DNA from: Weeksellaceae bacterium TAE3-ERU29
GTDB lineage: Bacteria; Bacteroidota; Bacteroidia; Flavobacteriales; Weeksellaceae
Length of the DNA stretch: 64,000 nucleotides
Direction: 5' to 3'
NCBI GenBank assembly: GCA_019218445.1
Contig: JAHUUM010000012.1
Coordinates: 1-64,000 of the forward strand
Shown: positions 8,051-54,180 of the stretch, one piece after another
Layout: each line of letters starts with the position of its first letter
Position numbering within the stretch: position 1 is the stretch's first letter
Notes under the pieces: generated by a model
Databases searched by the model: none
What the model was told of the DNA's origin: nothing
The model's input: only the letters and a program-made list of their open reading frames with translations
Program-made: the position numbers and the translations under genes

Positions 8051-8590
8051 AACCTAAGTTCATTATTAAAAAGGTTAATTGATTGAAGTTAACAATTTTG
8101 TTTGACAGACTTTAAATCTTCATATTATTTTATATTAATAAGTTATCTAATGAACTAACTCTATCCAAAATAAAATTTTATCATTTTTTTTTGAAATATA
8201 TTATTTTCCGGTATTTTTAGCAAATATTTTATTCAAACACATAATTTTCAATAACTTACATCTTATCGATATTAGTCTGAGTGATATAAAAGCTTAAAAT
8301 CTACTCTTATCGTTGATTCAATATATTTTTTAAATACAACCAAATTTAAAAAACTACATTTATTAGAGTAAGCTACCTTTTTAGTAAGTAACACCGAATA
8401 TCAAAGAGAATCAAAAAGTTATAAAAGAATATTTATCTCTTAAGTTAAGAAATAAAATTATATTATCATTACAAACTCAAGCAAAATATTAGTTATTACA
8501 AATCATATTAACTAATTTTAACATAAAAAAACTAAAAACAATTCTTTCATTAATACTTATTTTTATATTTTAGCCAAAAATTAATATAAT
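8051..8590. other. 540-bp AT-rich intergenic region
   Basis: This divergent region separates the TIGR02117 gene from the porin gene. I see no open frame with coding character, no tRNA and no strong hairpin. It presumably carries both promoters. An AT-rich leader before an outer-membrane porin would fit regulation, but I cannot define a site. Confidence 0.5.
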
Positions 8591-9742
8591 ATGATAAAAA
8601 AAATTACAGTTTTTTTGCTTTTAGCAATGGTCATTTCTAAAAACGTAAATGCTCAAAGTGAGAAGGATAGTCCTTCCTTATTAGAGCAAGTAAGAGAATT
8701 AGATAAACAAGCCAAACGATTTAATGTTTACTTTAATTTTCAGACTAGTTTTGATGTAATGTCGGAGAAAAATGAAAATACACACACAAAATTCAAAGCT
8801 CGAGAACTACGCTTGGGAATGAATGGAAATATTACAGATAAAGTATTTTATCGCTTTTTACACCGCTTAAATAAAAGCAGTTCAAAAGAATCTTTAGATG
8901 ATTTAGCAAAAGCTACCGATTTAATGTATGTCGGGTACCGGTTTAGTGATAAATTCACCGTTGCTTTAGGAAAACAAGCTCAAGTATGGGGTGGTTTCGA
9001 ATATGAATATAACCCTATAAATGTATATGAGTATTCTGATTTTTCCGAGAATATGGATGTTTTTCTAACCGGAATTACTTTTATTTATGATTTTAAAGAA
9101 GCAGGACAACAAGTAAAATTTCAAATAACTGATAGTAGAAGCTCAGAATTAGATGATACTTATAATTTAAATCATATTAAAGAAAAAATAGAACCGGCTC
9201 CAATGCCATTCACATATATATTGAACTGGGACGGAAATCTGTGGAATAAACTTTTCCAAACTCATTGGGCAGCCGGAGTACAAACTCAGGCAAAAGATCA
9301 ATACTCTTACATGCTTACATTAGGAAATAAATTAAATCTTAAAAACTGGCAATGGTCTTTAGACTATTACTATGCTCAGGAAGATATCGACCGATTGGGA
9401 ATCGTTACAAATGCTGTTTCTGAAGATAAAATATTCAGAAACGTTAGATATTCTACCTGGGTAAGTGAATTAGAATATCAACCTTCCGAGATTTGGAACC
9501 TTTTCCTTAAAGGAACTTATGATGTTGCCGGAGTTGCTGACAGTAAACCTTATGCTATGGGGTTCAGAAAAGCTTACGGATATTCTGCCGGTGTAGAACT
9601 TCTACCCTATAAAGATCAAGATTTAAGATTATTTATGGTATATATTGGTCGTAAATATGATTATACAGAAGAATCTCTAATTCCGGAAGATTATACAAAC
9701 CGTCTCAGTATAGGTCTATTGTATAGAATTAAGGCTTTTTAA
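8591..9742 (+). CDS. Outer-membrane porin, OprO/OprP-like
   Basis: A 383-residue protein with a cleavable signal peptide (M-I-K-K-I-T-V-F...V-N-A-Q) and a short coiled segment (L-L-E-Q-V-R-E-L-D-K-Q-A). It continues as alternating amphipathic beta strands and ends in a terminal Phe, as outer-membrane barrels do. Family resemblance is to the Bacteroidetes phosphate-selective porin group (Porin_O_P). The actual solute is not determinable. It stands alone, followed by a terminator hairpin at 9904-9944. Confidence 0.75.
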   Translation: MIKKITVFLLLAMVISKNVNAQSEKDSPSLLEQVRELDKQAKRFNVYFNFQTSFDVMSEKNENTHTKFKARELRLGMNGNITDKVFYRFLHRLNKSSSKESLDDLAKATDLMYVGYRFSDKFTVALGKQAQVWGGFEYEYNPINVYEYSDFSENMDVFLTGITFIYDFKEAGQQVKFQITDSRSSELDDTYNLNHIKEKIEPAPMPFTYILNWDGNLWNKLFQTHWAAGVQTQAKDQYSYMLTLGNKLNLKNWQWSLDYYYAQEDIDRLGIVTNAVSEDKIFRNVRYSTWVSELEYQPSEIWNLFLKGTYDVAGVADSKPYAMGFRKAYGYSAGVELLPYKDQDLRLFMVYIGRKYDYTEESLIPEDYTNRLSIGLLYRIKAF

Positions 9743-13003: not shown

Positions 13004-13725
13004 TTTTCGCTACTTTTTAAGGAAATATAACTTAAGACTAAAAATGCCGAAATCAGCCCAATGAAATAAATTAAATCTCGTGTATCTAACAATCCTTTTA
13101 AAAATCCGTCATAATGAAAATTTGCTCCCCATTGTTGCAAAGTATAATCAAATCCGCCCAAAAGATTGTATGACGCTAACCCCTGAAAACCAAAGAATAA
13201 GATAAAATTAAAAAATACCGCAGAAATATAAGCCGTTACTTGATTAGCGAATAAAGAGGAAGTCATTATCCCAACTGACGCATATAACGCAGAAAGCAAA
13301 AACAGCCCGATATATCCCATTGTGATTGTTCCGTAATCTATTGAATTTAAACTGAAATGGGATAAAGTTACTATAAAAAATAACGTAAATATCAACATCG
13401 AAAAAATGACAATTACAACGGAAAAGAATTTTCCCAGAATTATATTTCTTAAATAAATGGGTTGTGTTAAAAGCCAATCGAGTGTTCCGCTTTGTTTTTC
13501 TTCCGAAAACTGACGCATCGTAATTGCCGGTACAAGAAAAAGCATAATCCACGGGGCTATAAAAAAGAATGAATTTAACTCTGCTACATCAGAATTAAAC
13601 ACATTATAATTGTTATCAAAAAACCATAAGAAAAGCGAACAAACGATTATAAAAATAATCATTATAGCATAAATGGCATAATTTCCAAAATATGTCCAGA
13701 GTTCTTTTTTTAATATATTCAGCAT
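13000..13725 (-). CDS. gldF: Gliding-motility ABC transporter permease GldF
   Basis: A 241-residue ABC-2 type permease with six membrane segments. The cytoplasmic loop M-R-Q-F-S-E-E-K-Q-S-G-T-L-D-W-L-L-T-Q-P is the hallmark of the GldF/NosY permease group. Its start overlaps the end of the hemJ-like gene by seven bases and its end overlaps gldG by four. It therefore belongs to a tightly packed four-gene operon beginning with the SAM hydrolase at 15088. Confidence 0.9.
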   Translation of the reverse strand: MLNILKKELWTYFGNYAIYAIMIIFIIVCSLFLWFFDNNYNVFNSDVAELNSFFFIAPWIMLFLVPAITMRQFSEEKQSGTLDWLLTQPIYLRNIILGKFFSVVIVIFSMLIFTLFFIVTLSHFSLNSIDYGTITMGYIGLFLLSALYASVGIMTSSLFANQVTAYISAVFFNFILFFGFQGLASYNLLGGFDYTLQQWGANFHYDGFLKGLLDTRDLIYFIGLISAFLVLSYISLKSSEK

Positions 13726-51172: not shown

Positions 51173-51735
51173 AATGAAAATATTTAAATTATTTATAAGT
51201 GCTAACAATCCTCAAATAATATAAAATGCTCTTTATATTATTGAGATGTAAATTTAATTAATTTAGACTTAATATGTATAATAAATTAAGATAAATACAT
51301 CCTAAATGTAAGGTCTGGATATCCCGAAAAGTAAGTGAAATATTAAATAAACGAGATGATTCATTTTCCTAAATCTTTTGAAAATAATTTAAAGAATGCC
51401 AAAAACAATATTTAAAAAGAAGAGGTTTGCCACTTAGCGAGCCAAAATAAAACCAACCTAAAAGGAGTTTTTAAACTGCGTAGAAAAAACAAACATAGAC
51501 TTATGCCAAGCAAATGCTAAACACAAGATATAAGAGGATAAACAAAGTCCGTTTAGGGTTGCTAAATAAACTTTTGACACAAGAATAAATACAGCGAAAC
51601 AGATACGCAATAGGTTCTACAATCCGAATAAGATTAAACAAGTCAATTATAATAGAGCAATACTGGTAAAAGAACGATTAGCGTTTAAATTTTTAAACAA
51701 CAACCAACCTAAAAGTTTGGTAAAACTGATTAAAA
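51173..51735. other. Non-coding or decayed region
   Basis: 563 bases with no sustained open frame. Short Lys/Asn-rich stretches interrupted by stop codons (for example M-I-H-F-P-K-S-F-E-N-N-L and N-N-Q-P-K-S-L-V-K-L) suggest remnants of one or more decayed genes. The region is somewhat less AT-rich from 51440 to 51700 than normal spacers. No RNA family recognised. Confidence 0.4.
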
Positions 51736-51972
51736 TTAGTCTTTAAATTTAAACCATATAGGATCTTTTCCAGTAATAGCCCAAAACATAAAACTAATCC
51801 ATAATATAGAAAAATAAATAAACGCTATAATGATAAGAGGTAAAGAAAGTACCAACCAAGTTTCAGGAGGTATAAAGAAACCTAGAACAACCCAAAAAAA
51901 TAAAAATATAATTGAAAGTTTATATCTTTTTTTCTGATACCATTTTCTATTAATTACCTCTTTCATAATCAT
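51736..51972 (-). CDS. Small two-helix membrane protein, 78 aa
   Basis: Basic N-terminus (K-W-Y-Q-K-K-R-Y-K), then two membrane segments separated by P-P-E-T-W, and a short tail W-F-K-F-K-D. No family recognised. A perfect minus-strand -7 box (TATATTTG, at 52000-52007 read in reverse) lies 27 bases before the start, supporting expression. The second Met may be the true start. Confidence 0.6.
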   Translation of the reverse strand: MIMKEVINRKWYQKKRYKLSIIFLFFWVVLGFFIPPETWLVLSLPLIIIAFIYFSILWISFMFWAITGKDPIWFKFKD

Positions 51973-52054
51973 TGATTTATAACTACTGATTTATAACTAC
52001 AAATATACAAAAAACGGTGAAAAAACGACATAACCCCGATTTTCTGCCTCTTAT

Positions 52055-52082
52055 AAAAAAGACTTCCTTAGGTGTCTTTTTT
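52055..52082. terminator. Hairpin preceding the RNA array
   Basis: AAAAAAGAC (52055-52063) pairs with GTCTTTTTT (52074-52082), a symmetrical terminator-like hairpin between the divergent promoters of the small membrane protein and RNA unit 1. Its TTAGGTGTCTT (52068-52078) also pairs perfectly with AAGACACCTAA (52098-52108) at the start of RNA unit 1, enclosing the promoter. Confidence 0.55.
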
Positions 52083-52084
52083 CT

Positions 52085-52287
52085 TATATTTGTATTGAAG
52101 ACACCTAACAAGGTACTTCATGAGTGCTTGAATTGACAAGGAAGCCTAAACAAGGAGGCGAGAGCTAAGCCCACCAGAGAACTTAACGCACAGACGGGGG
52201 TTTTTGACCTATGTTCTTATTGGGATAAGTTGAAATACTTATTTTGAGGAATGAGAGGAGTTTATTTAAATTCCTCTTGTTTTTTCT
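52085..52287 (+). ncRNA. Structured small RNA, unit 1 of three
   Basis: The -7 box TATATTTG (52085-52092) is followed after four bases by a 5' hairpin GAAG-ac-ACC-TAACAA-GGT-a-CTTC (52097-52119). Downstream are CTTG-N6-CAAG, GCCT-AAACAAGG-AGGC and the string CCACCAGAG. A terminator AGAGGA-N12-TCCTCT plus T-run lies at 52254-52286. No open frame of note is present. It has the same start layout as units 2 and 3 but a longer, different body. RNA family not recognised. Confidence 0.6.
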
Positions 52288-52346
52288 AATATCCTACTTT
52301 CTACCCCTTATAAAAAAGACTTTCTTCGGGTTATAAAAAAGATTAA

Positions 52347-52466
52347 TATATTTGCATTGAAACATTAAACAAAATGTTTCTATTTGGTCATCGACCACCG
52401 AGCAGAATAGCGGTATAGTATCCCGAAGCTCAAAATAATAGGCTATCTATTTTTAGGTAGCCTTTA
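52347..52466 (+). ncRNA. Structured small RNA, unit 2 of three
   Basis: The -7 box TATATTTG (52347-52354) is followed after four bases by a perfect hairpin GAAACATT-AAACAA-AATGTTTC (52359-52380). A second hairpin TGGTC-ATC-GACCA (52385-52397), a body closed by GAGC/GCTC and a terminator GGCTATCTA-TTTT-TAGGTAGCC (52441-52462) with a weak T tract follow. Compared with unit 3, both the first stem and the terminator stem change sequence while keeping base pairing, as expected for functional RNA. Confidence 0.65.
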
Positions 52467-52490
52467 TTCAAATTGTAAAAAGTTAATTAG

Positions 52491-52634
52491 TATCTTTGTG
52501 TCGAAGTATTAAACAAAATACTTCTAGTTGGTCAAGGACCACCAGGGGGTGGGTTAATGCAAGGTCGGACGCAAGCGCCGAATGTTAAGCGAAATCCCCG
52601 AACTAAAGCATCTATTTAATTAGGTGCTTTTTTT
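52491..52634 (+). ncRNA. Structured small RNA, unit 3 of three
   Basis: The -7 box TATCTTTG (52491-52498) is followed after four bases by GAAGTATT-AAACAA-AATACTTC (52503-52524). A second hairpin TGGTC-AAG-GACCA (52529-52541) and a body closed by GGGG/CCCC around TCGG-a-CGC-AA-GCG-CCGA follow. The terminator is AAGCATCTA-TTTAAT-TAGGTGCTT plus a T-run (52606-52634). An alternative pairing CCACC/GGTGG (52539-52552) would exclude the second hairpin, so the RNA may switch. It shares ATCCC(C)GAA with unit 2. Confidence 0.65.
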
Positions 52635-52746: not shown

Positions 52747-52782
52747 TATATTTGCTTTTACGTAACAAATTAGTTACATTTG
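52747..52782 (+). promoter_or_regulatory. higBA promoter with inverted repeat
   Basis: Two -7 boxes, TATATTTG (52747-52754) and TACATTTG (52775-52782), flank or overlap the inverted repeat GTAAC-N6-GTTAC (52762-52777). The repeat overlaps the proximal promoter 21 bases before the toxin ATG, the usual place for autorepression by the antitoxin. Confidence 0.55.
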
Positions 52783-52798
52783 CAAAAGATTTTATTGA

Positions 52799-53137
52799 AT
52801 GCGAACAATATACAGAACAGAGGAATTTTATAAGTTTTTAGAGGAGGCTAATACTAAACTAAAATCTAAGATAGAATATGTAAACCAAATTCTAATAACG
52901 CAAAAAATAATTAACTCGAAAATAGCAAAGAAACTAATAAATACAGATTTGTATGAACTTCGCATAAAATCAGGAAATGAGTACAGAATATTGACTTTTA
53001 CTATTGATAGCGACGATATTAACCAGTGTGAAAATATATTGTTTATTTCAGGCTTTCAAAAGAAAAGTACAAAAGATTACGATAAAGAAATAAAAAAGGC
53101 ATTCAAAATATTAGAGCAATGGACAGAAGAAAGTTGA
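52799..53137 (+). CDS. higB: HigB-like (Gp49/RelE superfamily) toxin
   Basis: A 112-residue protein with the RelE/Gp49 layout. L-I-N-T-D-L-Y-E-L-R-I-K-S-G-N-E-Y-R-I-L near residues 47-66 is the core beta-sheet region with catalytic-type Arg and Tyr. I-L-F-I-S-G-F-Q-K-K-S follows near 80-90, with a C-terminal helix. Family members cleave mRNA on the ribosome. The toxin precedes the antitoxin, the HigBA order, and overlaps it by 19 bases. Confidence 0.85.
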   Translation: MRTIYRTEEFYKFLEEANTKLKSKIEYVNQILITQKIINSKIAKKLINTDLYELRIKSGNEYRILTFTIDSDDINQCENILFISGFQKKSTKDYDKEIKKAFKILEQWTEES

Positions 53138-53433
53138 ATATAAAGAAAATAAAGGCGTTACCGACTATGAATGCGTATTTAGATAAGAAATACGGTAAAG
53201 AAGATACGCCTGAAAGAGCCGAATTTCATGCAAAGGCAACGGCCTACTATTACGGTGAACTAATTAGAGAAACCCGTAAAGAGAAAAACTTAACACAGGA
53301 AGCCCTTGCACAAAAAATAGGAAAGGACAGGGCGTATATTGCACGAATAGAGCAAGGCAAAACCGATTTACAGGTTTCTAACTTCATTTTATTACTAAAT
53401 GCCTTAGGATTGAATTTTAATATCTCTAATTAA
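53119..53433 (+). CDS. higA: HigA-like XRE-family antitoxin
   Basis: A 104-residue protein with a C-terminal helix-turn-helix: L-T-Q-E-A-L-A-Q-K-I-G-K-D-R-A-Y-I-A-R-I-E-Q-G-K-T-D-L at residues ~60-86. The N-terminal ~45 residues likely contact the toxin. It overlaps the toxin gene and should neutralise it and repress the shared promoter at the GTAAC/GTTAC palindrome. Confidence 0.88.
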   Translation: MDRRKLNIKKIKALPTMNAYLDKKYGKEDTPERAEFHAKATAYYYGELIRETRKEKNLTQEALAQKIGKDRAYIARIEQGKTDLQVSNFILLLNALGLNFNISN

Positions 53434-53453: not shown

Positions 53454-53523
53454 TATATTTGTCTTATACAAACAAACAAACATCAAAGAGGAACATTTTT
53501 AAAAGAGTGTTTCTCTTTTTTTG
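53454..53523 (+). ncRNA. Candidate short RNA after higBA
   Basis: A perfect -7 box TATATTTG (53454-53461) is followed by about 20 unstructured bases with the repeated motif ACAAACAAACAAAC. A strong terminator AAAGAGGAACA-N12-TGTTTCTCTTT with a T-run (53485-53523) follows. The predicted transcript is about 58 nucleotides with no room for a protein. Its AAACAA repeats echo the AAACAA loops of the RNA array at 52085-52634. Confidence 0.5.
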
Positions 53524-53780
53524 TTGAGGTGAAAAATAAAAGAGAGCAAAAAAATATTAATGCTCTCTTTATCCCAAATGTTACCGAGTTATGGTAACGA
53601 CACAAAGATAAAGATTTTATTAAAACTGATGTAGAGGTAAGAAAAAAAAGACCTCAACTACTAAACGATAAAAGACACTAAAAAGCGAGCAAAAAAAGTT
53701 TTGTTGACACAAATGTTGCACAAATCGTAAACTAAAAAACCGCAACCCTTTAATAAATAAAAGATTACGGTTTTATATTG
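53524..53780. other. Spacer between the short RNA and ssrA, with hairpins
   Basis: AAAGAGAGC (53539-53547) pairs with GCTCTCTTT (53562-53570), and GTTACC-N7-GGTAAC (53580-53598) is a further dyad. The stretch AACCGCAACCCTTT...AAAGATTACGGTT (53737-53776) is a hairpin that, read on the minus strand, ends in a T-run and serves as the ssrA terminator. No gene is visible. Confidence 0.6.
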
Positions 53781-54180
53781 TGGAGTCGGCGGGATTCGAA
53801 CCCGCGTCCAAACAAGGAAATCATATGCTTTCTACATGTTTATTCTTTTCTTAGGTTTTCGAGCTAAATAAGGATAAAGAAATCCAGCATTTAGCCTTAG
53901 TTTCATAAAATTCGCTTAGATACAGAAACATCATCTAAGCTATTCCCATTTTTCTGTGCCACGAACTCAGACGCCATGAGAAGAGGGCATCTGCGTGACA
54001 TTTAGCTTCCCTACCTTGTAGGAAGATCGCCAAGACTTACTATAATTCAGTCAATTAGGCAGCTAAAGCGTAATTGTTGTTGCCAGTTAAAAAGTTGAAG
54101 TGTCTTATTAACGTGAGTACACAACATTTCACGACATGCTTACATACCACCTCGGCTTGCTGTCAAAACCAGTCGACCCC
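53781..54180 (-). ncRNA. ssrA: Transfer-messenger RNA
   Basis: A 400-base tmRNA. The 5' end GGGGTCGACTGGTTTTGACA and the 3' end with the T-arm GGTTCGAATCC and acceptor ...GCCGACTCCA (CCA encoded) pair to form the tRNA-like part. The tag frame at 54055-54084 reads G-N-N-N-Y-A-L-A-A-stop, so the appended peptide is (A)GNNNYALAA, as in other Bacteroidetes. A minus-strand -7 box TATCTTTG lies at 54206-54213. The RNA rescues stalled ribosomes with SmpB. Confidence 0.96.

Follow-up and report, generated by a model that had tools for sequence, protein, structure and literature searches.

Near the 3' end of ssrA, within the apparent remains of an integrative element inserted at that site, we find two paralogous sequence units in tandem, each with its own promoter box and two hairpins, whose first stems differ by two complete base-pair swaps with no pair broken. 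With moderate confidence we take this pair (units 2 and 3), perhaps joined by units 1, 4 and 5 beside it, for short non-coding RNA genes, each transcribed on its own, that remained in the relic of the ssrA element and probably act in trans by base pairing. The region lies in a 64-kb window, by which we mean the whole stretch of DNA analyzed here. The original prediction, made from the DNA letters, had proposed that small, structured, independently promoted RNAs are encoded at this place; the sequence supports that proposal for units 2 and 3 and supports it less well for unit 1.

Structure of the units and their paired substitutions

Units 2 (52347 to 52466) and 3 (52491 to 52634) follow one another on the forward strand. 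TAnnTTTG promoter boxes had been placed before each of three units, and all three occur at those sites, with TATATTTG at 52085 in unit 1, TATATTTG again at 52347 (52347 to 52354) in unit 2, and TATCTTTG at 52491 (52491 to 52498) in unit 3. Four bases past each box stands the G that opens a hairpin and that we predict to be the transcription start, at 52097, 52359, and 52503, respectively. No TTG around -33 at the consensus spacing was seen by eye. Hairpin 1 extends over 52359 to 52380 in unit 2 and 52503 to 52524 in unit 3, and is followed in both by hairpin 2 (TGGTC-ATC-GACCA at 52385 to 52397 and TGGTC-AAG-GACCA at 52529 to 52541) and then by a terminator-like stem in unit 2 (52440 to 52463) and a terminator in unit 3 (52605 to 52630). 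The terminators of units 1 to 3 are located as predicted; a terminator scan lists those of units 3 and 5 as intrinsic terminators, whereas the stems of units 1, 2, and 4, each with a U-rich tail behind it, are absent from its list.

From just 5' of the promoter box, through hairpins 1 and 2, to a CCACC motif, units 2 and 3 align over 58 ungapped bases at 79% identity, and by this alignment they are true paralogues. Between them the first stem changes from GAAACATT/AATGTTTC to GAAGTATT/AATACTTC with its pairing kept, as had been claimed: two of its eight pairs are altered on both sides, none is broken, and none is altered on one side only. These two full base-pair swaps account for four of the 12 differences between the units, the others falling outside the stems, and the second stem, TGGTC/GACCA, is identical in both. 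When the 12 differences were dealt at random to sites of equal starting base, so that the kinds of substitution were kept, all pairs survived in 281 of 200,000 trials, at least two double changes arose in 4,665, and both outcomes coincided in 87. The terminator stems (GGCT/AGCC and AAGC/GCTT) had also been counted as covarying, but their positions cannot be aligned as homologous, and they are not evidence of covariation. A closing helix around hairpin 2 (CTATT/AATAG versus TAGTT/AACTA) was rejected as not significant, with 484 and 274 of 2000 shuffles doing equally well. Compared with shuffled sequences, units 2 and 3 have fold z-scores of -5.68 and -3.82 over their whole length and of -3.17 and -2.51 without the terminators, so that much of the folding signal in both comes from the terminators.

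Unit 1 (52085 to 52285, forward strand) is a weak member of the group. It has a box at 52085 to 52092, a 5' hairpin at 52097 to 52119 (GAAG...CTTC, with AACA in the loop), and a terminator-like stem at about 52243 to 52285, and what it holds in common with units 2 and 3 is limited to the promoter and a first hairpin that has diverged. Among the motifs described as conserved across the three units, it contains CCACC and lacks both TGGTC-N3-GACCA and ATCCC(C)GAA. A covariance model made from units 2 and 3 (R1) scores it at 21.6 bits (E 0.0076 over 101,498 bases). Its whole-length fold has a z-score of -3.36, with 1 of 200 shuffles equally good; as the terminator part reaches -4.59 and the remainder -1.19 (-1.16 in a separate calculation), that signal comes from the terminator, and the remainder folds no better than shuffles. 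A 37-base repeat stands 5' of units 1 and 2 (52036 to 52072 and 52293 to 52329, both on the forward strand, 84% identical), and this repeat, together with the likeness at the 5' end, makes it possible that unit 1 is a distant paralogue. The predicted array of three is borne out for units 2 and 3 and only in part for unit 1.

Two candidate units that the original prediction did not list, as it did not list the 37-base repeat or the integrase relic described below, lie downstream of the HigA gene. Candidate unit 5 (53454 to 53524, forward strand) has a box at 53454 to 53461, a predicted start at 53466, and a terminator at 53485 to 53518 that carries its fold z-score of -4.42. Candidate unit 4 (53531 to 53610, reverse strand; z -5.90) has a box at 53610 to 53603, a perfect 6-bp stem opening at its predicted start at 53598 (GTTACC-ATAACTC-GGTAAC), and a terminator-like stem at 53570 to 53539. 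A 13-base promoter and start sequence, TATCTTTGTGTCG, is identical in units 3 and 4 and has no other copy in the window when one mismatch is allowed; 0.09 matches with up to one mismatch are expected. Across the window, a perfect Watson-Crick stem of 6 bp or more begins exactly four bases past 3 of the 119 TAnnTTTG boxes, every one of them in this locus, against an expectation of 0.64 (P about 0.03). This is modest evidence, the threshold having been picked after the units were seen and two of the three cases being paralogues. Such stems follow 6 of 767 boxes at that spacing in 121 other loci (458,229 bases), and these six include two in loci brought in by R1 and two that are one sequence in overlapping loci.

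The integrase relic, HigBA, and ssrA

Upstream of the cluster is a decayed tyrosine-integrase gene (51304 to 51554, forward strand), which is preserved in two pieces, 51304 to 51366 and 51456 to 51554, with in-frame stops. In tblastn searches the second piece matches at E 0.002 and the first at E 2.2, which is weak alone. At the DNA level, positions 51456 to 51521 are 87% identical (E 1.9e-14) to the integrase gene of an element situated at ssrA in a genome of the same genus, G003, and positions 51328 to 51355 give a 28-base match to that gene (E 0.017). On the far side of the cluster, ssrA itself, the tmRNA gene located with Rfam (53778 to 54180, reverse strand), turns its 3' end toward the units; no displaced copy of the ssrA end, which together with a tyrosine-integrase gene characterizes an element integrated at ssrA, was recognized in the window.

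The adjacency of the units to a HigBA module was correctly predicted, as a HigB-like (Gp49) toxin gene (52799 to 53137, forward strand; Pfam PF05973) and a gene for a HigA-like helix-turn-helix (HTH) antitoxin (53119 to 53433, forward strand) adjoin the units; NCBIfam matches of the pair, including RelE/ParE for the toxin, are all below cut-off. Relatives of HigB (E at most 1e-10) were found at 12 places in 11 of the 196 family genomes other than the source genome. At six of these 12 places, a figure that counts relatives of a single integrase only, an integrase match stands just before HigB on the same strand, its end lying 17 to 91 bases from where the HigB match begins. This recurrent order of integrase and then higB on one strand constitutes an integrase-HigBA module. 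The interval from the relic to higB in the window is about 1.2 kb and is filled by a 78-amino-acid open reading frame (ORF) and units 1 to 3, and the cluster appears to lie between the integrase and higB of a decayed element. For the suggested link of the RNAs to defense we found no support: the toxin's relatives often follow integrases, and PADLOC, run on five proteins, returned 11 HTH-type matches for the antitoxin, which we regard as generic, and, for a nearby methyltransferase, a partial match to the longer protein mad2 (E 1.5e-13).

The 78-amino-acid ORF (51736 to 51972, reverse strand) is hydrophobic, diverges from unit 1, and has its own TATATTTG box at 52007 on the reverse strand. It has no Pfam match and weak matches in 3 of 147 other family genomes (E 0.001-0.004, 33-34% over part), and it may encode a small membrane protein like those of type I toxins. 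Beside the higB box, at 52747 to 52776, the palindrome GTAACAAATTAGTTAC is a possible HigA operator; palindromes resembling it stand upstream of higB in G156 and G009 (L090, about 1862 to 1830, reverse strand; L010, about 2140 to 2157).

The G003 element encodes a tyrosine integrase (Phage_integrase, PF00589), is flanked by 35-base repeats 7.8 kb apart, and carries four c4-2 RNAs (Rfam RF02944, 65.7-75.7 bits) on the integrase strand between the integrase and ssrA (L081:7983-8062, 8497-8574, 9009-9080, and 13288-13367). Three neighboring copies are about 512 bases apart with a TATTTTTG box in partly common sequence before each, and two near-identical ORFs of about 100 amino acids follow the first two. 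The parallel between this cluster and the present units is one of place, not of sequence.

In phages, c4 RNAs exert antisense control of an antirepressor. The units could likewise be antisense RNAs of c4 type directed against the element's own genes, their target having been lost as the element decayed, a reading that is possible but unlikely. It gains from the fact that the four c4-2 RNAs of G003 hold the same place as the units, in the interval from integrase to ssrA. Nothing in the cluster, however, reaches the c4-2 gathering score of 41 bits, no c4 model is among the cluster's matches even at E up to 10, and c4-2 is absent from the source genome, as it is from two other members of the genus. 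Nor is there a convincing antisense partner nearby. We paired the five units with seven neighboring stretches in RNAduplex (35 pairs, 100 shuffles each); two pairs, unit 3 with the start of higA and unit 2 with the tmRNA, had no shuffle as good, and for four further pairs 2-5 of 100 shuffles were as good. Two such zero-shuffle pairs in 35 tests mean little, the U-run of the terminator anchors the duplex formed by unit 3 and higA, and none of the seven stretches is a convincing partner.

Searches for relatives of the units

Among the 4227 models of Rfam release 15, only tmRNA reaches its gathering threshold in the window, and the best scores within the cluster, at most 24 bits with E 0.24 or worse, are of the size expected by chance. 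We searched R1, which covers 53 positions, is made from two sequences, and detects close relatives only, against 296 family, 4 genus, and 395 order genomes, the sets overlapping. In the family, 18 of 295 other genomes gave matches at E up to 0.1, about 30 being expected by chance, and the best 10 of 19 local alignments are unconvincing; one family match (L041) was set aside as a palindrome of a common-looking type. Within the genus, matches outside the source genome have E values of 0.1 or worse; nine alignments, one of them from the source genome itself, were covered, and the best two matches look coding by eye. In the order, 6 of 394 other genomes matched at E up to 0.02, with about eight expected, and all six alignments are unconvincing; one order match was rejected as a homologue since its sequence looks coding. 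At another, L074:1548-1460 (reverse strand, in a 0.6-Mb genome), a TATATTTG box, a hairpin, and a terminator-like stem precede a gene that we take to be hisG-like, an arrangement that is possibly an attenuator.

Direct comparison of the DNA gave a similar picture. Units 2 and 3 match 4 of 98 genomes beyond their own (99 searched) in stretches of 21-36 bases, every one of which falls on a terminator in query coordinates, and unit 1 matches 4 of 319 other family genomes (320 searched) briefly and in its 3' part only. Elsewhere in the source genome there is a 28-base match to the stretch just 5' of the unit 2 start. A strict sequence pattern searched in contigs of 84,980 species gave one match, in Arthrobacter, which is GC-rich and has no full promoter box, and four patterns searched in viral contigs gave one match, of coding type by eye; these patterns demand exact matches, and some collections may omit the window's own record. 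In blastn, units 2 and 3 gave one 30-base match among plasmids (E up to 1), and units 1 to 3 matched 47 phage records, of which 46 represent one stretch of E. coli-type phages that encodes DNA polymerase or primase where annotated (two are unannotated), and the remaining one is the Elizabethkingia phage discussed below. The titles and abstract openings covered, from part of the matching papers, contain no description of this cluster. In the flank of an integrase relative in G228 (L101:455-530), a 7-bp hairpin begins three bases after a TATATTTG box and is succeeded by a T-run and then by another hairpin, possibly a further tiny RNA gene near an integrase.

The original prediction had named the absence of both transcripts and covarying homologues elsewhere as grounds for refuting it. 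The half that concerns homologues holds in the collections searched, which yielded none, and two sequences are therefore the whole basis of the proposed structure. Its "unrecognized family" is accordingly unrecognized in that no Rfam gathering score is reached, but as a family it comprises two paralogues in one genome. That the units were not found in three other species of the genus or in the other relatives searched, and that the integrase is in pieces, would both suit neutral debris, that is, duplicated promoter-terminator pieces of a dying element that are functionless whether transcribed or not. The paired substitutions between units 2 and 3, with no broken pair, suggest instead that selection acted after the duplication, at least formerly, and we judge debris unlikely. 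Because the element has decayed, the units may be decayed too.

Interpretation and comparison with known systems

The inverted repeats at +1 might alternatively be DNA operators, repressor-bound palindromes overlapping promoters whose transcripts matter little. HigA-type proteins bind palindromes, higB has its own palindrome by its box, resembled upstream of higB in G009 and G156, the palindromes of the units are perfect from +1 to +22, and symmetric changes would be kept by DNA palindromes as well as by RNA stems. Yet the stems differ, GAAACATT in unit 2 and GAAGTATT in unit 3, which is unlike the operator of one protein, a second and different hairpin is conserved downstream, and terminators follow with no gene between, all of which makes this account unlikely.

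Elizabethkingia phage TCUEAP1 matches 30 bases of the unit 2 promoter and left stem arm at 90% (R1 15.6 bits). In the phage, TATATTTGCATT...AATTAAACAAAATG forms the promoter and leader of an annotated hypothetical gene, continues as far as the start codon, and has no right stem arm. This suggests a likeness between the left half of hairpin 1 and ordinary gene starts of flavobacteria, so that the sequence at the left of unit 2 is no necessary sign of an RNA gene, and it led us to think protein genes slightly less improbable, and debris slightly less probable, than we had before. An origin from short protein genes, or a present identity as such genes (promoter, brief leader, ATG), with the hairpin as a by-product, is nevertheless very improbable for the units, for although that leader and a 14-codon ATG frame in unit 2, open also in unit 3, speak for it, unit 3 has lost the start codon (ATG to ATA) through a paired stem change, the frames of the two units end at different places, and the TCUEAP1 leader lacks the right arm.

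Our best reading is that the cluster consists of element-borne, multi-copy small regulatory RNAs, an orphan case of an already known kind. An integrative element would have entered at the 3' end of ssrA and left the units in its relic. In units 1 to 4 the hairpin at +1 would form the 5' end of the transcript and shield it against decay, with a terminator at the other end. The RNAs would most likely act in trans by base pairing, as we propose by analogy with multi-copy small RNAs (sRNAs) such as FopS, which are structurally different. The common 5' domain (hairpin 1, hairpin 2, and CCACC) would serve as a handle for stability or protein binding, and targets would be paired by the diverged 3' parts or by the unpaired CCACC and UCCC stretches. 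A broader idea, which we regard as speculative and unlikely, is that in these bacteria clusters of small structured RNAs form a regular module, between integrase and ssrA, of the elements at the ssrA end, in which the RNA family is swapped between elements (c4-2 in one species, that of the present units in another) and the RNAs outlive their element as host regulators. If transcribed, the units would add to the cases in Bacteroidota where sRNAs arose on a mobile element through local duplication. The ssrA site offers natural pairs, the c4-2 cluster and this one, for studying how element-borne RNAs are kept or lost.

Among known systems, type III toxin-antitoxin loci have RNA repeats directly upstream of a ToxN-like toxin; this assignment was rejected, the adjacent toxin being Gp49 by Pfam and followed by an HTH protein, and integron cassettes, retrons, and tracrRNAs were dropped by inspection. 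The Tandem STAXI motif, described as pseudoknot repeats near integrases and sometimes near c4 RNAs (PMC2864571), resembles the cluster as a set of repeated structures near an integrase; STAXI repeats are pseudoknots in that description, whereas the units reach no Rfam gathering score. Rfp18 of Flavobacterium psychrophilum, reported as a structured sRNA widely conserved in its genus (PMC9723704), is, like other sRNAs of that species, an independent structured flavobacterial sRNA, but the units were found in one genome only, and the two are set apart here by that report's description, not by sequence.

FopS and GibS of Bacteroides are reported as multi-copy sRNA paralogues whose promoters are of the canonical Bacteroidetes type and whose terminators are Rho-independent, and phages are suggested as a possible means of their spread; FopS has a single-stranded 5' stretch with a conserved seed followed by a terminator and is described as deposited in Rfam (PMC11697453), where the units match no family. 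Binding by an RbpB-type RRM-1 protein is one criterion for FopS sRNAs. The present units resemble FopS as described there in being several paralogous sRNA candidates in one genome, each with a predicted promoter and a terminator or terminator-like stem, but they are clustered, and units 2 and 3 have an 8-bp hairpin at the 5' end and another one after it where FopS has its layout of seed and terminator. The c4-2 RNAs (RF02944, clan CL00128) differ in structure, being a long closed stem with two inner hairpins whose model the units do not match, but share with the units their setting, since a congeneric species has several of them together in one element that occupies the same ssrA site.
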